Part shown: positions 5,894 through 12,880 of the stretch, piece by piece
Numbering within the stretch: position 1 is the first letter of the stretch
How the letters are laid out: every line of letters begins with the position of its first letter
NCBI GenBank assembly: GCA_040754075.1
Contig: JBFMDH010000034.1
Location: forward strand, 1 to 64,000
Length of the DNA stretch: 64,000 nt
From: Acidobacteriota bacterium
GTDB taxonomy: Bacteria > Acidobacteriota > Blastocatellia > UBA7656
Reading direction: 5' to 3'
Program-made: the position numbers and the translations under genes
The notes under the pieces: generated by a model
Databases searched by the model: none
Told to the model about the DNA's origin: nothing
Seen by the model: only the letters and a program-made list of their open reading frames with translations

Positions 5894-6586
5894 TTAAGAG
5901 TCACAATCTTTTTTAACTTGCCGGTACTTCTCAATTTGAAATAGCATCGGCTCAGAAGTAATTTCGTTGAACCAAAATTCCCCAATATTATGCCATCGCT
6001 CACGAAGTTCTTCTGCTTCCTCTATTGAATTATTCCAAGTGAGGACACTGATTTGAAGAAAATGTGTTCCGCTGTCTGGGTAGTCATCATCTTTTTCTTG
6101 ATTATGCCCTGCAATCACCAAAGAAACATTAAGATTTATTTGCAAAGAACGCTTTGGAGCTAAAATAACAAACGCAGAATTAGGTTTGTTTTTATCGAAA
6201 GGTTTGTGTTGTCCTACAATCTCATACGACACATCATAGATTTGTTTATATCGCCCTGCTTTTGCACGTTCCAATGTATCAGCAACTAATTTCTTGAAAA
6301 CGATATTACTATATTTGTAAAGTATCACTTTTCGCTGGCTTACATTTGAATACTTTAATTGTAATCTTAATTGAAGGCGGTCATGTTGACTCCCGTAAGG
6401 ATTACAATATTTTTTCTTTAGTATCTTTATCGTGAGTTGCAAAGGGGTTTTAATTTTTCCTGTTTGCCACGGTTCGCTTAATAGTTTGGCAGAAACTTGC
6501 CCTCCATCCTTCAAGCCAAAATTAGTGAGACTAAAAAGGCTAAAAAAAGAAATTAAAATAAGTAAACAATTTCTTCTCATAAGCAT
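5894..6586 (-). CDS. predicted secreted protein translationally coupled to RHS gene
   Basis: The product (about 230 residues) starts with MLMRRNCLLILISFFSLFSL, a typical signal peptide. I place the start at 6586 because this ATG overlaps the RHS stop codon in a TGATG arrangement, implying translational coupling; another ATG lies two codons further on. The body contains NSAFVILAPKRSLQINLNVSLVIAGHN and an Asp/Glu-rich segment, with no family I recognise. Codon use is much more AT-rich than in the RHS gene. Coupling to an RHS gene suggests an immunity or partner protein, but this is inference only. Confidence 0.6.
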   Translation of the reverse strand: MLMRRNCLLILISFFSLFSLTNFGLKDGGQVSAKLLSEPWQTGKIKTPLQLTIKILKKKYCNPYGSQHDRLQLRLQLKYSNVSQRKVILYKYSNIVFKKLVADTLERAKAGRYKQIYDVSYEIVGQHKPFDKNKPNSAFVILAPKRSLQINLNVSLVIAGHNQEKDDDYPDSGTHFLQISVLTWNNSIEEAEELRERWHNIGEFWFNEITSEPMLFQIEKYRQVKKDCDS

Positions 6587-9500
6587 CACTTTTTGAAACA
6601 AGCATCCAACTCTTCCCCGAATGGCAGGTGCGCTTGCCGACCAACGACTGCGCCACTCGCATCCAACGTCAAGCGCGCGCTCAAGCGGTCGCTCACATAG
6701 TAGCGCGTCACCGATGATGAGAACCGCGCTATCAACCGACTCCCCGAATAAATATTTTCACTGAGCAAGCCGCTGGTCGCCGCATCGTACTCGGCAATCA
6801 CTTGACCGCCTTCCCACACCGCGTGCGTCACGCTCGCGCCAATCGCTTTCTTGATGCGCCGGTTGTTCGCGTCATACGCATAGCTCGCCGTCGCTCCGCT
6901 GTCCACACTCGCCAAGCGATTCTCGGCGTCGTAAGTGTAGCTGTGCGCCCCGTCACTGGTCACATTGCCGTTGGCGTCATAGCTGTAATTCTTCGTCACC
7001 CCGCTGGTCGTCACGCTCGTCAGTCGGTTGGTCGGCGCGCCGCCGCTTTGTTGTAAGGTGAGTGATTGAATCTGCGTGCCGCCGCTTGTCGCATCATACA
7101 CCGATGTGCGATTGCCCCAGCGGTCATAGACGAAGCGCCGTTGCGCCGTCACCGTGTTGGTCGTTTGATTAGAAGTCACCAATCTGCCGAGATTGTCGTA
7201 GGTGTACGCCGCGCTCTCCGCCGTCGCATCAATCGTCCCGCTGATTGACATGAGTTGTCCGCTGTTGCCAGCCGTTGACCCTGCCCCGCTCTGTCCCGCC
7301 GATGCCGAATAATCGTAGGTGAGGCTCATCAATGAAGTCGCGCCTTTGGTCGCCGTCTGCGAAGTCAACTGCAAACGATTGGCGTCATACCCGTAAGCTT
7401 CAACCACGCCGTTACCCAAGGTCAACCCGGTCACTTGCCCGGCGACGTTATACCCCACTCCGCTCAAATAATTTGCCGATGCAGCGTCCGTCAACGACGT
7501 GAGTCTCCCGACGCTATCGCGGTTGATGTTCACCACCCGCGTCGAAGGATAGGTTATCCGACTCCGCACATCGCCCGCCCCGTATTGATAACTCGTCGCA
7601 TAACTCGCGCTATCTATTGTCCGCGTCAGCGAACTCAATCGCTTGTAAGTGTCATAGCCATAACTCTCTTGATAGGCATCCCAAGCCGCAGTCTTACTCA
7701 CTGATAACAACAACCCGTTGGTCGCGCTCCCATTCGTGTTGTCAAACGTGTAGTGTACTCCGGATGTCGCCGCCACTCCGCTCGCCCCGCTCGTGTTGTA
7801 ACTCACGCTCGTCAAGCGATTGAGGTTGTCATAGCTATACGTCGTAATCACCCCGCGCGCATCCGCGCGCGTCTGCACCGCATGAAAATCGGTGTAGGTG
7901 TATTTCATCGTCCATAACGTCCCTGTGCCATCGTTTATCGTCGCCGTCTGCTCAGGAATTTTTTCATAGAGCATTCGCCCCAGCGCATCGTACTTCCACG
8001 CTCGCGTTTGACTGCCTTGACTCACCCCCGTCAATTTATTCAACAGATTGTAACTGTAAGTCGTCTCCTGATTGAGCGCGCCACTTGAGACATCCTGCTC
8101 GGTGACTTTCGCAAGTCTGCCGAGTCCATCTATTTCGCGTTTGATTTGCCGCCCGACTTGATCGGTCAAGGTCATCGCCGCGCCGCTATAAGCGGTTTGC
8201 ACGGTTTGCGAATCGGGCAAGGTCGCCACCGTCACTCTGCCGAGCGCGTCATATTGATAAGCGGTTGCGCCGCCCGGCGAGCCGCCTGCCGTAAACGGAT
8301 TGGTAACGCTTGCGACTCTCGACAACGCATCATAGGTCGTATTCACTTGCCCGTTATTCGGGTCAACCTGTTGCTTGGTTCTGCCCCACCCGTCAAAGCT
8401 AACCGTAGTCGTTCCCTGTCCCGTTCTTGCCGTTGCCACAGTCAGATTCACATCATCGTAAGTTGCGGTCTCCTGGGTCCCGCCCGGCAATTCTTTTCTG
8501 ATCAATCTGAGCGCCGCGTCATAATAAAACCATCGCTTGCCCATATTGGCGTACTCGGTATACTTCGGCAAATCGGTGTTGAAATCGTAAGTCGTGTTAC
8601 TGTCCAGATGCAATCCTTGCGGGTCGCCTTGCGTCACCGTCGGCGGATTTGCCCAGTAATCGTTCGACGCAAAGGTAAACACTTTCTGTTTGCAACAAGT
8701 CACCTGTTCCTGAATCACATTGCCCATGCGGTCATATTTTCTGAGGCGCGTCGGCAACGTCGTGTTGTTGGCAATATCCGTCCACTGCGTTATGCCTGTG
8801 ACATTGCCGCGCAACGTGTAGCTGGTGGTATATTTCGCCGAATCGTGACCGGGTGGTTTCGGCGCGCGATCCTGCATGCCGCCGGTTGCCGCATAATCAT
8901 CGTAAGTGAACGATGTTTTCGCAATCAATACATCATCCGCGTCATTGGTGTTTTCCAATGCGTCAAACACTTCGGTCAACGTTACCAGGCTTCTGAGATA
9001 GGCATCCAGATAAACTTGATCGGTTTTGTAGGTGAGACGGGTTCGCCTGCGAACTTGCCAGTTGCCGCTGATTGGCGAACCATACTCGCGCTTGTTGGTG
9101 ACATTGCCATACTGGTCATAATCGAAATCCACTTTGGTCGCGCTGTTGGTGTCGTCATAAGTGGTAATCGTTTGCGGTTGCACATTGCTGCCGCCGTCTG
9201 TCGTATAAGCGGTTACGGTTTTTGAGTAGGAGATTGAATTTTTAGTGATTTCGGTTTGCGTCAATAACCCGTTCGCCGGTATTGAGCTATTAGTCGAGCG
9301 CGTCAATATCAGATTCGATGAATCGGGTCGGGCAATCGTAAAGGTCATCGTTTGCGCGATGGCGTCCGTTGAACTCGAATAAGTGTAAACCCCGGTTGAG
9401 GTATTCGGGGCGCTCTCTGTGCGTTGGGTAAACGCGGGCGCATCGGTAAGCGACGTGCTCCCAACCGTCGGATAATTGAAATTGACCGTCGCGTTTTCGT

Positions 9501-11082
9501 TGCCGTCGCTGATCGCGCCATTGGCATCTATGCTCATCTGCCGCCGCATCGAAAGCGTGTGCATCATGCCGTAATCGGAATAAGTGAACAGATAACCCGC
9601 GTTCGTTCCCGGAAAATAGATATGCTTCAATACCGCGACGCTGCCGCCTGGCGCATTTTCGACCGTTAGTCCGCTAAAGGTATAACTCAAGGTTCGCGTT
9701 TCATAATCGAATTGCGCGATGGTGCGGGTCACAGGGTTTTGCGCCGTGCCGCCATAACCCGGCGCGGTAATCGAAATCAATTGTCCCGACGCATCATAGT
9801 TGAATTGAATTTTTCTGCCTTTGGTATCGGTGACAAAATCAATCGCCAGCGGCGAGGCAACGCCGTACTTGTAAGCGATTTCAATATAATTGCCGTTTGC
9901 ATCGGTTATTTGTTTGGGCAACAGCCGATTGTTATAGGTATTGAAATCAACCTTGGTGCCGTCGCTGTAATACAACGCGCCATTGATGGATTTGCCAACG
10001 TAAGTAATATGCGTTCCGTCGGTGGTTTGATAAGTCGTCGTCACTGACCCATTGCCGGTGCCGAGATAGTGCAGGGTGCCATCCGGGTCAACCAAAACAA
10101 ATTTTGTGCTGGTGCCGGTTCCATAAGTCACAATGCGCCCGAAACCCAATGAAAAACCGGCAAACGGATTGCCGCCAATCGGACTAAAGGTTACATAATT
10201 GCCGTGCCGCGACCACACGCGAGAGTTATAAAACAGATTGAGACTTGCGCCAATGCCTCTGCCGCCAAGTCCGATTAACGGCGTTGCAAAATTAAAATTG
10301 CTGCCTTCGGGCAACACCGAGCCAAGCGCCATCGGTTCAAGCACACGATTGCGCGGATTGCCTGTAAGGTTGCGCGCTTCGCTCCACATCTCATCGAAAG
10401 GAAAATCGGTTCCCGCGTAACCGCCGCCTTGCGCCTGAGCCGTTGGCATGAGTTTATCAACCAAGGCTGGCAGAATTGCCCCGACACCGGTGGACTCCGC
10501 ATCGCTCAACGCATCCTGATCATTTTTCCATTCCCTATCGTTTTGTTTGGGACGATTGCCGGGTCGCACTAACACGGTTGCCGACGCTTGCGCGGTTCCG
10601 GCGCGGCAAATGATACGGCTTTGTCCCGATTCGTTAAAGGTCGCTTTGCCGGTATCATCAATGTGAATTTTTTCAGGACTAGCGGATTCCCAAGTGAAGA
10701 CTACGCCTTGAATGACTTGCCCCTGCGCATTCAAACCGACGGCATCGAATTTCAATGCATCGCCTTGATAAGCCACAAAGCGTGATGGCGATAGGCGAAT
10801 TTGCGCGACCTGGGCGAGGCGGTCATCAAGCGTCTCTTCACGCTGCGCGGCAGGAGAGCCAAATACATATTTGAGTATCGAAGCCAGATAGCTAACCGGC
10901 GAAGCGACGGAATTGAAAGCCGATGAAGCAACCACCGGCAATTGATAAAAGGCTTGTGAGGACATCGGCAACAGCAACAGACTGGCGACCAGAATCAGGC
11001 AAACCGTTCTTCTGATAGCGGCGCGTGAAAATTTATGGATTAGAAATTGCAGGGGGAGGGGTATGAGATTGACTACGCGCAA
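6586..11082 (-). CDS. RHS/YD-repeat secreted protein, lacking the core end and toxin tip
   Basis: The 1498-codon frame encodes a signal-peptide-like segment (RTVCLILVASLLLLPMSSQAF, about residues 25-45). A bacterial Ig/Big2-like domain follows at about 90-170 (QIRLSPSRFVAYQGDALKFDA). The rest is a long RHS region with dozens of YD repeats such as YDALGRV, YDANGNVTSDG and YAYDANNRRIKKA. RHS repeats form large shells that usually encapsulate a C-terminal effector. Here the protein ends at HLPFGEELDACFKK, just where homologues continue into the TGKERDxETGLDY core motif, so the tip is missing. The frame begins at a TTG with poor context. A better start, ATG at 11104 with AAAGGAG upstream, is one frame off and would join this frame if the GGGGG run at 11052-11056 had one base fewer. 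Confidence 0.85.
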   Translation of the reverse strand: MRVVNLIPLPLQFLIHKFSRAAIRRTVCLILVASLLLLPMSSQAFYQLPVVASSAFNSVASPVSYLASILKYVFGSPAAQREETLDDRLAQVAQIRLSPSRFVAYQGDALKFDAVGLNAQGQVIQGVVFTWESASPEKIHIDDTGKATFNESGQSRIICRAGTAQASATVLVRPGNRPKQNDREWKNDQDALSDAESTGVGAILPALVDKLMPTAQAQGGGYAGTDFPFDEMWSEARNLTGNPRNRVLEPMALGSVLPEGSNFNFATPLIGLGGRGIGASLNLFYNSRVWSRHGNYVTFSPIGGNPFAGFSLGFGRIVTYGTGTSTKFVLVDPDGTLHYLGTGNGSVTTTYQTTDGTHITYVGKSINGALYYSDGTKVDFNTYNNRLLPKQITDANGNYIEIAYKYGVASPLAIDFVTDTKGRKIQFNYDASGQLISITAPGYGGTAQNPVTRTIAQFDYETRTLSYTFSGLTVENAPGGSVAVLKHIYFPGTNAGYLFTYSDYGMMHTLSMRRQMSIDANGAISDGNENATVNFNYPTVGSTSLTDAPAFTQRTESAPNTSTGVYTYSSSTDAIAQTMTFTIARPDSSNLILTRSTNSSIPANGLLTQTEITKNSISYSKTVTAYTTDGGSNVQPQTITTYDDTNSATKVDFDYDQYGNVTNKREYGSPISGNWQVRRRTRLTYKTDQVYLDAYLRSLVTLTEVFDALENTNDADDVLIAKTSFTYDDYAATGGMQDRAPKPPGHDSAKYTTSYTLRGNVTGITQWTDIANNTTLPTRLRKYDRMGNVIQEQVTCCKQKVFTFASNDYWANPPTVTQGDPQGLHLDSNTTYDFNTDLPKYTEYANMGKRWFYYDAALRLIRKELPGGTQETATYDDVNLTVATARTGQGTTTVSFDGWGRTKQQVDPNNGQVNTTYDALSRVASVTNPFTAGGSPGGATAYQYDALGRVTVATLPDSQTVQTAYSGAAMTLTDQVGRQIKREIDGLGRLAKVTEQDVSSGALNQETTYSYNLLNKLTGVSQGSQTRAWKYDALGRMLYEKIPEQTATINDGTGTLWTMKYTYTDFHAVQTRADARGVITTYSYDNLNRLTSVSYNTSGASGVAATSGVHYTFDNTNGSATNGLLLSVSKTAAWDAYQESYGYDTYKRLSSLTRTIDSASYATSYQYGAGDVRSRITYPSTRVVNINRDSVGRLTSLTDAASANYLSGVGYNVAGQVTGLTLGNGVVEAYGYDANRLQLTSQTATKGATSLMSLTYDYSASAGQSGAGSTAGNSGQLMSISGTIDATAESAAYTYDNLGRLVTSNQTTNTVTAQRRFVYDRWGNRTSVYDATSGGTQIQSLTLQQSGGAPTNRLTSVTTSGVTKNYSYDANGNVTSDGAHSYTYDAENRLASVDSGATASYAYDANNRRIKKAIGASVTHAVWEGGQVIAEYDAATSGLLSENIYSGSRLIARFSSSVTRYYVSDRLSARLTLDASGAVVGRQAHLPFGEELDACFKK

Positions 11083-11431: not shown

Positions 11432-11581
11432 GCGGTGACTGGTCACCGCTTTTGTGTCATTTGAAGACAGATAGGTTTCTCTCAGAATCTTATTACATCG
11501 GAACCTAGATTTCTTGAGGTTGAGAGTTACGCCTTTAGGCGTGAGAGCCGGACGCTTCACGCCTAAAGGCGTAACTCTCAA
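11432..11581. repeat. two palindromic hairpins upstream of the DUF1573 gene
   Basis: The roughly 580-base gap between the RHS gene and the next CDS contains two strong palindromes. GCGGTGAC (11432-11439) and GTCACCGC (11442-11449) are perfect with a 2-nt spacer. A perfect 25-bp inverted repeat spans 11520-11544 and 11557-11581 with a 12-nt loop; its core is ACGCCTTTAGGCGT. A short reading frame on the minus strand across this element looks like an artefact of the repeat. The rest of the gap shows nothing I can name. The element resembles REP-type intergenic palindromes. Confidence 0.7.
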
Positions 11582-11685
11582 CTCCTGCTTCGTTTTTTCG
11601 GGGCGGTGAAAAAATCGCAAGACACTGGAAAATTGATTTGCTATACTTCCGACTTCTGTTACTCAAATCAACCCGGAGACATTAC

Positions 11686-12774
11686 ATGAAGTTAAAACTT
11701 ATTTCTCTTTCGCTGGCTCTGGCGTTGGCATTTGCTTTGACCGCTGCGGCGCAGGAGAAAAAAGGTCCCAGCACCGCCAATGGCTCGCCGAAACTGGTGA
11801 TTGATTCGCTCATTCACGATTTCGGCGAAGTGAAAGCGGGCACCCCGCTGAACTTTACTTTCGTCATTAAAAATCAAGGCAAAGCCGACCTGGAGATTAC
11901 CAAAGTAGCGCCTGGCTGAGGTTGCACGGCAAGCGACTTTGATAAAGTCGTGCCTCCTGGTAAGGAAGGCAAAATTTCTCTCTCAGTTCCACACACCGAA
12001 GGCTTAGCCGGTGAAGTTGCCAAAGGCGCAACCGTCACCACCAACGACCCGGAACACGCAACCTTCGTGTTGACTTTGCGGGCGCGGTTTAAATATGAAC
12101 CACCGCCGACGCCACCCGGCGCAACCCCTGCGCCCGAACCCGGAAGACATCTTGGTCCCTTGAGTTTGTCGCCTACTGACCGTTGGATTACCAGCATCCT
12201 CAAAGGCACGCCGTCATCCGGTACGATTCATATCTATAACAATGACAGCAATCCGATTAAGGTAAAATCGGCAACCGTTAGCGGCAATGAGTTCACCGCT
12301 AAACTGACGACCATTGAAGAGGGCAAACGTTACGAATTGTTTGTTTCTACGAATGCCGCATTGAAACCCGGTCAATATCATCAAACGGTCAAACTCACCA
12401 CCGACAGCAAAGAGGTGCCCGAAGTCATCATTCAACTCGATGCGACGGTTTATTCGCATGTCTTTACAACGCCGACCAGTATCATCTTGCCGTTGATGCC
12501 AACGACGATTGAAGCATCGGCGGTCAATTTGCCATTCATTAACATTCGCAAGATTCGCGATGGCGGCTTGCAAATTAAAAAGGTGAGTTCCACCTTGCCG
12601 TTTATTCAGCCAACCCTGGTCACAGACGTTGAAGGACAGGTCTACAAAGTGACCCTGACTTTTAAGAAAACCAAAGGCATGGAAAAAGGCACGTACAAAG
12701 GCAAAATCATGATTGAAACCAACGACCCCGATTCACCAATGATTGAAGTGCCCATTCAGGGCGAATTCAATTAA
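11686..12774 (+). CDS. DUF1573 exported protein, candidate selenoprotein (in-frame TGA at 11917)
   Basis: Reading TGA 11917-11919 as selenocysteine gives a 362-residue protein. It has a clean signal peptide (MKLKLISLSLALALAFALTA), a GGAG ribosome-binding site, a DUF1573 domain at about residues 35-130 and a second Ig-like half (about 150-360). DUF1573 domains normally read SCGCT after the LEITKV strand. Here the sequence is LEITKVAPG-TGA-GCTASDFDKV, so the TGA replaces exactly the first Cys of CGC. The same frame continues for 285 sense codons with family-like sequence (VPPGKEGKISLSV). A hairpin suited to a bacterial SECIS follows the TGA. The alternative is a nonsense mutation or sequencing error at TGC/TGT. 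No sel genes are in this window. Confidence 0.75.
11917..11954 (+). promoter_or_regulatory. candidate selenocysteine codon and SECIS-like hairpin
   Basis: After the TGA there are 21 nucleotides, then an apical GAT loop (11941-11943) closed by an 8-bp stem GCGACTTT (11933-11940) with AAAGTCGT (11944-11951), containing one G-U pair. Beneath an AA bulge lies a 3-bp stem GGC (11928-11930) with GCC (11952-11954). Published descriptions of bacterial SECIS elements require a stem-loop shortly after UGA, a small loop with a G in its first positions and roughly 16-37 nt from UGA to the loop. All three hold here. Confidence 0.65.
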
Positions 12775-12789
12775 ACAGCCCGGTCAGAT

Positions 12790-12858
12790 AAAAACAAGCG
12801 GCGCGAGTAATCATTGACGAGAATTCATCAATGATTACCCGCGCTGCTTGTTTTTTTT
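12790..12858. terminator. bidirectional rho-independent terminator
   Basis: AACAAGCGGCGCGAGTAATC and the following TTGA pair with TCAA, GATTAC, GCGC and GCTTGTT on the far side, giving a long stem around a GAATTC-containing loop. An eight-T run (12851-12858) follows, with an A-run on the opposite side. It separates the convergent DUF1573 and amidotransferase-like genes and can serve both. Confidence 0.85.
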
Positions 12859-12880
12859 AACCATCCCGAAGTTGATGAGC

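Follow-up and report, generated by a model that had tools for sequence, protein, structure and literature searches.

Selenoproteins with a DUF1573 domain have been recorded before. A 'DUF1573 domain-containing protein' with the motif UGC is listed as a selenoprotein in two reviews (PMC9312934 and PMC13188914), of which PMC13188914 credits it to work of 2007 on the symbiont of Olavius algarvensis, and the available portions of both reviews state no function for these proteins. The table of the 2008 GOS survey has a row for OS_HP2, pfam07610 with a UxC motif (values 2, 2 and 354, under column heads not given here; PMC2398784, available in part), and NCBIfam holds the model NF041425, 'OS_HP2 family (seleno)protein'. 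In the accessible text on deep-Sep (PMC12013277), a single Acidobacteriota genome appears, credited with three known selenoproteins, and DUF1573 is absent.

The gene described here, at 11686-12774 on the forward strand of the window (the whole analysed stretch of 64,000 nucleotides from an Acidobacteriota genome), is very probably a selenoprotein gene of this already recorded DUF1573/OS_HP2 family. Judged by sequence comparison, the decoding of its in-frame UGA (11917-11919) as selenocysteine, together with membership in the family, is very probable. The DUF1573 domain of its product scores 107.3 bits against NF041425 (cut-off 100) and the Cys paralogue at locus L054 scores 111.3 bits. The model spans 98 positions, whereas the window protein adds two predicted beta domains, which are common to full-length Acidobacteriota homologues. 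As in OS_HP2, the UGC/UxC motif has Cys-type homologues, with UGC in the window and CGC in 22 of 23 TGA-free homologues. The listed DUF1573 selenoproteins CAB1076174.1 and MDJ0815992.1 have the same Pfam domain and UGC motif, a likeness drawn from their description only in the available text, and the OS_HP2 of the GOS survey, whose source is marine metagenome data, shares pfam07610 and UxC in the accessible part of the table (PMC2398784). Cys-type DUF1573 proteins of Bacteroidota and others carry CGCT at the same column, without a UGA; the Bacteroidota set is biased towards Cys forms because one of the two search patterns spelled CGCT.

The earlier note on this DNA presented the gene as a candidate new selenoprotein and knew of no described DUF1573 selenoprotein. 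That claim fails because NF041425 matches above its cut-off and the two reviews, in the portions available, list DUF1573 with UGC; the GOS row precedes it as well. The analysis adds the Acidobacteriota members, the switching between Sec and Cys, the presence in this one genome of three genes of DUF1573 type that each hold a single TGA, and a branch with adjacent Sec and Cys that falls below the family cut-off. A little-studied selenoprotein family is thereby extended across Acidobacteriota, with a clean exchange of Sec and Cys.

The frame opens with ATG at 11686, closes with TAA at 12772-12774 and is broken by a single in-frame stop, the TGA at 11917-11919, in agreement with the coordinates noted earlier. 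Read through, it encodes 362 residues with Sec78, and 284 residues and the stop lie downstream of the TGA, whereas a mechanical listing of open reading frames splits the gene into 11638-11919 and 11950-12774. PF07610 (DUF1573) matches residues 40-133 of the read-through protein (11803-12084, predicted beta) with the UGA inside the match (E 1.9e-24, 85.9 bits, cut-off 26.1). The UGA would give Sec78, the first residue of UGC, and its UxC partner Cys80 (TGC, 11923-11925) is invariant in 18 aligned homologues. Eight TGA-split frames in the window are candidates by length; only the one at 11917 looks family-like across the TGA by eye.

Upstream, a Shine-Dalgarno-like GGAG is found at 11675-11678, with the ATG 7 nt downstream. 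Residues 1-22 (11686-11751) form a putative signal peptide with KLK, a hydrophobic core and AAA followed by Q. A promoter scan found 1 site, with 1.3 expected. On the 3' side of the TAA there is a long terminator-like hairpin with a U-rich 3' side (12786-12858, forward strand), which a pattern scan lists on the reverse strand only; the piece 12774-12870 folds at -45.8 kcal/mol (z -10.65).

An AlphaFold2 model built on 18 sequences (mean pLDDT 82.4, pTM 0.49) is nearly all beta and Ig-like, with three predicted domains at residues ~35-136, 154-256 (12145-12453) and 259-361 (12460-12768), the second and third of them Ig/PapD-like; the spatial arrangement of the three is unreliable because of the pTM. 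Sec78-Gly-Cys80 lies in the first domain, between predicted strands 69-76 and 81-85. The top structural matches to the model are Ig- and PapD-like domains (VesC, 2qsv, CEP192, HYDIN and ciliary proteins), and most rows of the match list fall on residues 156-362. The VesC domain 6bqm matches residues 36-137 with Z 11.5 (rmsd 2.3, 98 aligned), 2qsv, of unknown function, matches with Z 11.7 (rmsd 11.3, 191 aligned) and HYDIN 2ys4 with Z 9.7 (rmsd 3.4, 107 aligned). The likeness to HYDIN, CEP192 and VesC is one of predicted fold alone, and a shared fold says nothing on function. A sequence search of solved structures gave one match, at E 0.07, which is not meaningful. A thioredoxin-like fold is absent among the matches listed, which does not exclude one; such a fold is usual, and not required, for a thiol/disulfide oxidoreductase. 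The Ig-like fold is not usually tied to redox chemistry.

The following mechanism is proposed. tRNA-Sec and SelB would act on a hairpin at 11933-11951 so that the UGA at 11917-11919 is decoded as selenocysteine. The protein, judging from its N-terminus, would be exported, as a chain of three predicted Ig/PapD-like beta domains in which Sec78 and Cys80 most likely form a reversible selenenylsulfide. Closed CXC disulfides are described as strained rings, mixed disulfides being preferred (PMC12509089, accessible in part), and the U-x-C motif suggests a strained selenenylsulfide. The preferred reading, tentative and drawn from the motif and from analogy, is that the protein might carry out thiol/disulfide (selenol) redox chemistry within the envelope. 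The earlier note had proposed an exported redox or metal-binding protein, and the signal-peptide-like N-terminus agrees with export.

In the rival reading that survives best, the protein is also a selenoprotein, with Sec78 and Cys80 binding a soft metal (copper, mercury or zinc) in the envelope rather than taking part in thiol redox. Pairs of the CxC and UxC type are able to bind soft metals, and His44 is invariant in the seven sequences of the window's family. The available part of the table in PMC13188914 also has a family for Cu/Zn efflux whose motif is UxC. However, no conserved Cys was found beyond the motif in the class A family alignment (7 sequences; class A is the window gene and its like), His44 varies among the 18 aligned sequences, and inspection by eye of the flanks of loci L079 and L083 revealed nothing recognisable as a metal-transport gene. 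Metal binding is considered rather unlikely, and a function other than thiol redox or metal binding takes the remainder of the likelihood. Gene neighbourhood was tried as a functional clue and rejected; the flanks of L079 and L083 look unrelated by eye (Lon-like and xanthine-dehydrogenase-like; phosphofructokinase-like).

The machinery for selenocysteine is present. The window's genome, of 7.58 Mb in 68 contigs and with a stated completeness of 100%, has a tRNA-Sec at 65.5 bits, over the cut-off, which ARAGORN also reports as tRNA-SeC with anticodon tca, and selB (383.5 bits), selA (565.9 bits) and selD (353.2 bits), each above its curated cut-off. Absence of selB or selC, named in the earlier note as a way in which the proposal could fall, is thereby excluded. 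With this complete sel set at hand, it is highly improbable that the UGA is read as some other residue through a variant code or a suppressor tRNA. TGA terminates 12 of the 30 open frames of at least 300 codons in the window (not all of them necessarily genes), which argues against a genome-wide code reassignment, and cysteine takes the column in 22 of the 23 TGA-free homologues.

The selD of the same genome (L191, C29:72690-73613) has one in-frame TGA, and its product reads CAGUAAKL. A Sec-type SelD is well known, and SelD of this genome is therefore probably a selenoprotein itself, a second and classical case of Sec in the genome.

An orthologue of the window gene with exactly one TGA, at the same codon, is present in 7/7 genomes of the family, which represent five genera, and the six relatives have 45-57% protein identity. 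G79 and C80 after the UGA column are invariant in these seven sequences and conservation at the protein level reaches the C-terminus. Random stops in relatives, which the earlier note named as a refuting finding, do not occur here. In a sample of 396 Acidobacteriota genomes, searched with a homologue threshold of E 1e-30 or better, 89 have a homologue: 25 genomes with a TGA-bearing form and 64 without TGA. In 25/25 of the former, seven read from loci and 18 from separately retrieved sequence, the TGA supplies the U of UGC. Loci were available for 23 of the 64 TGA-free genomes; 22 have CGC and the other, L162, has no such motif.

That the TGA is a true stop, leaving a pseudogene or a 77-residue product, has in its favour only that the window taken alone shows a stop. 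With the stop at the same motif codon in all seven family genomes and in each of the 25 genomes that have a TGA form in the phylum sample, and with protein-level conservation running to the C-terminus, this reading is exceedingly improbable. A sequencing or assembly error is more improbable still, with the same TGA in seven genomes of five genera and a marked codon uniformity downstream. The pseudogene, the sequencing error and the variant code were rejected on the conserved TGA, the conservation downstream of it, the codon uniformity and the TGA stops elsewhere. Selenocysteine at the first Cys position of CGC, as the earlier note had it, is very probable on these comparisons, and the interrupted gene is, as far as comparison can settle it, one intact selenoprotein gene.

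The presence of tRNA-Sec was rejected as a test to separate Sec from Cys genomes: it was found in 23/25 TGA genomes and 50/64 TGA-free genomes of the phylum sample, which is not significant (p = 0.22). When the TGA genomes are compared with all others of the sample (238/396 overall) the p value is 0.0005. No tRNA-Sec was found at the threshold in the TGA genomes G176 (96% complete) and G351 (84%). Genome G157 (89% complete), from the search of the class, gave none either, though it does carry selA.

The exchange of Cys and Sec at this column among relatives, proposed earlier as a check, is supported. Of 162 genomes of the class that were searched, 29 gave some form of match. Family f9 has a match in 10 genomes, with UGC in nine of them and CGC in G155, and in f6 UGC is found in G027 and G028 and CGC in G029. 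Genome G030 has tandem copies, one with CGC and one with UGC. In f9 the partial match of G151 carries three TGAs in all. The gene tree, built from 32 Sec and 24 Cys genes (56 in all) with the Sec/Cys column masked, implies at least four changes between the two states, with Sec and Cys forms adjacent in f6, f7 and f9; support within f9 is mixed.

Some loci hold both forms side by side. In locus L104, on a Zixibacteria contig outside the phylum, 952 bases separate a UGC unit from one with CGC. The tandem Sec/Cys DUF1573 pair of G030 is in L054 (G030:C153), and L081 is apparently the same contig. In L059 (G153:C24; reverse complement 1327 and 1648) a CGC DUF1573 domain is followed 107 codons on by a UGC domain in a single frame, and its sequence possibly encodes a two-domain Cys/Sec protein. 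The two tandem pairs and the CGC/UGC frame offer natural experiments on the contribution of selenium when an Ig-like scaffold bears a CxC site.

A bacterial SECIS-like element follows the UGA. Its upper stem-loop, GCGACUUU-GAU-AAAGUCGU, lies at 11933-11951 on the forward strand with the loop at 11941-11943; it has 8 pairs including a closing G-U, and the loop begins 21 nt past the UGA. The stem-loop reported earlier, with an 8-bp stem, a GAU loop and this spacing, is thus present. The outcome of folding depends on the piece that is folded. A 41-nt piece folds into this hairpin at -12.7 kcal/mol (z -1.71), and only in this fold is there a lower stem, where 11918-11922 pairs with 11952-11956 (element 11918-11956, forward strand). 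A 47-nt piece prefers a different pairing (-14.5 kcal/mol, z -0.93), and with 76 nt yet another one is favoured (z -1.91). The check by RNA folding that had been proposed thus recovers the hairpin in the shortest piece and not in the two longer ones. The fold of the window gene is only mildly above chance because the longer pieces choose other pairings, and with these z values single-sequence folding was rejected as the chief proof.

That the hairpin is beyond chance follows from the comparison of UGA genes with Cys genes and from the fixed codons. Hairpins whose loop has 3-8 nt and lies 14-24 nt past the UGA were measured in 47 UGA genes and, for comparison, in 33 Cys homologues; four UGA genes (L181, L187, L189 and L190) are outside this set. 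The median energy is -6.9 kcal/mol in the UGA genes and 0 in the Cys homologues, and a hairpin of -6 kcal/mol or lower is found in 31/47 and 1/33 respectively (p = 8e-12). The hairpin surpasses 95% of its synonymous shuffles in 23/47 UGA genes compared with 0/33 Cys homologues. A test of minimum free energy against synonymous shuffles at 5% singles out 16/34 UGA genes and 2/13 Cys genes (p = 0.013), which is supportive but not clean. The hairpins of L039, L059, L104 and the Sec gene of L054 are weak.

At the codon level, uniformity at positions +1 to +16 after the UGA in class A is 0.81, compared with 0.56 elsewhere in the genes, a difference reached in 0/20,000 permutations. This set comprises 21 UGA genes, two of them near-copies, and conserved codons were compared; D is GAC, K is AAA and V is GTC in 20/20 each. 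The same codon region in nine Cys genes shows no significant difference (0.66 vs 0.60, p = 0.14), and five class C genes, described below, give 0.82 vs 0.68 (p = 0.013). In other families of Acidobacteriota the sequence and register of the hairpin differ (GCCGAG UUC GACUCGGU and similar), which argues that the structure itself matters, beyond shared codons.

Covariation is thin. In a set of 21 chosen UGA genes 89.9% of cells are paired, a value reached by 0/500 shuffles. One pair has changed on both sides, a number that 403/500 shuffles reach: C18-G34 is G-C in five and U-A in one of these genes. A control in which the partner was slid by 3 columns gave a near-equal score (0.127 vs 0.125). Bacterial SECIS elements as a rule have a G within the first two positions of the loop, and such a G is not present in every loop here.

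The window's genome has five clear DUF1573-type genes and a sixth, weak match in a frame of 947 codons. Three of these genes carry one TGA each and represent classes A, C and D; class A is the window gene, with UGC, and class B consists of two short CGC genes (L026 and L033). Class C (L041, C5:217629-217916 in the same genome) is short and has UGC; its start is lipobox-like, and it contains a Pro-rich linker. This form with UGC occurs in 5/7 family genomes (L041, L035, L037, L042 and L046). Two representatives of class C score 73-75 bits against NF041425 and two of class D 36-42 bits, all below the cut-off.

Class D (L047/L111, C1:230967-232079 in the same genome) differs in having Sec and Cys adjacent, in the motif PSUC, or YTUC in L032, and is a three-domain, DUF1573-related protein with exactly one TGA in 7/7 family genomes; further members are L036, L039, L040, L043 and L044. 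A profile comparison shows kinship with class A along most of the protein (probability 99.9, E 1.3e-34). Across the 162 class genomes searched, the next match drops to 111 bits and is a class A gene, so that no Cys orthologue of class D was recognised. The hairpin measure, with its loop of up to 8 nt, found none in the class D genes L040, L044 and L047. A scan of two class D proteins against NCBIfam gave no model of their own, and the available portions of the literature on DUF1573 selenoproteins hold no description of the adjacent UC form. This branch may merit its own family model. It is possible that the lineage has assembled three selenoproteins of DUF1573 type (A, C and D), probably of the envelope, as a dedicated selenium-based redox system on Ig-like scaffolds; this suggestion is put forward with some reserve.

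Two features were observed upstream of the window gene. A near-perfect palindrome at 11519-11582, for which the piece 11515-11590 folds at -53.3 kcal/mol (z -9.78), is a dispersed repeat with 20 hits in 12 places of the genome at 75-100% identity, and is possibly a REP- or MITE-like element. The adjoining frame of 1498 residues (6586-11082, reverse strand) looks RHS/YD-repeat-like by eye.
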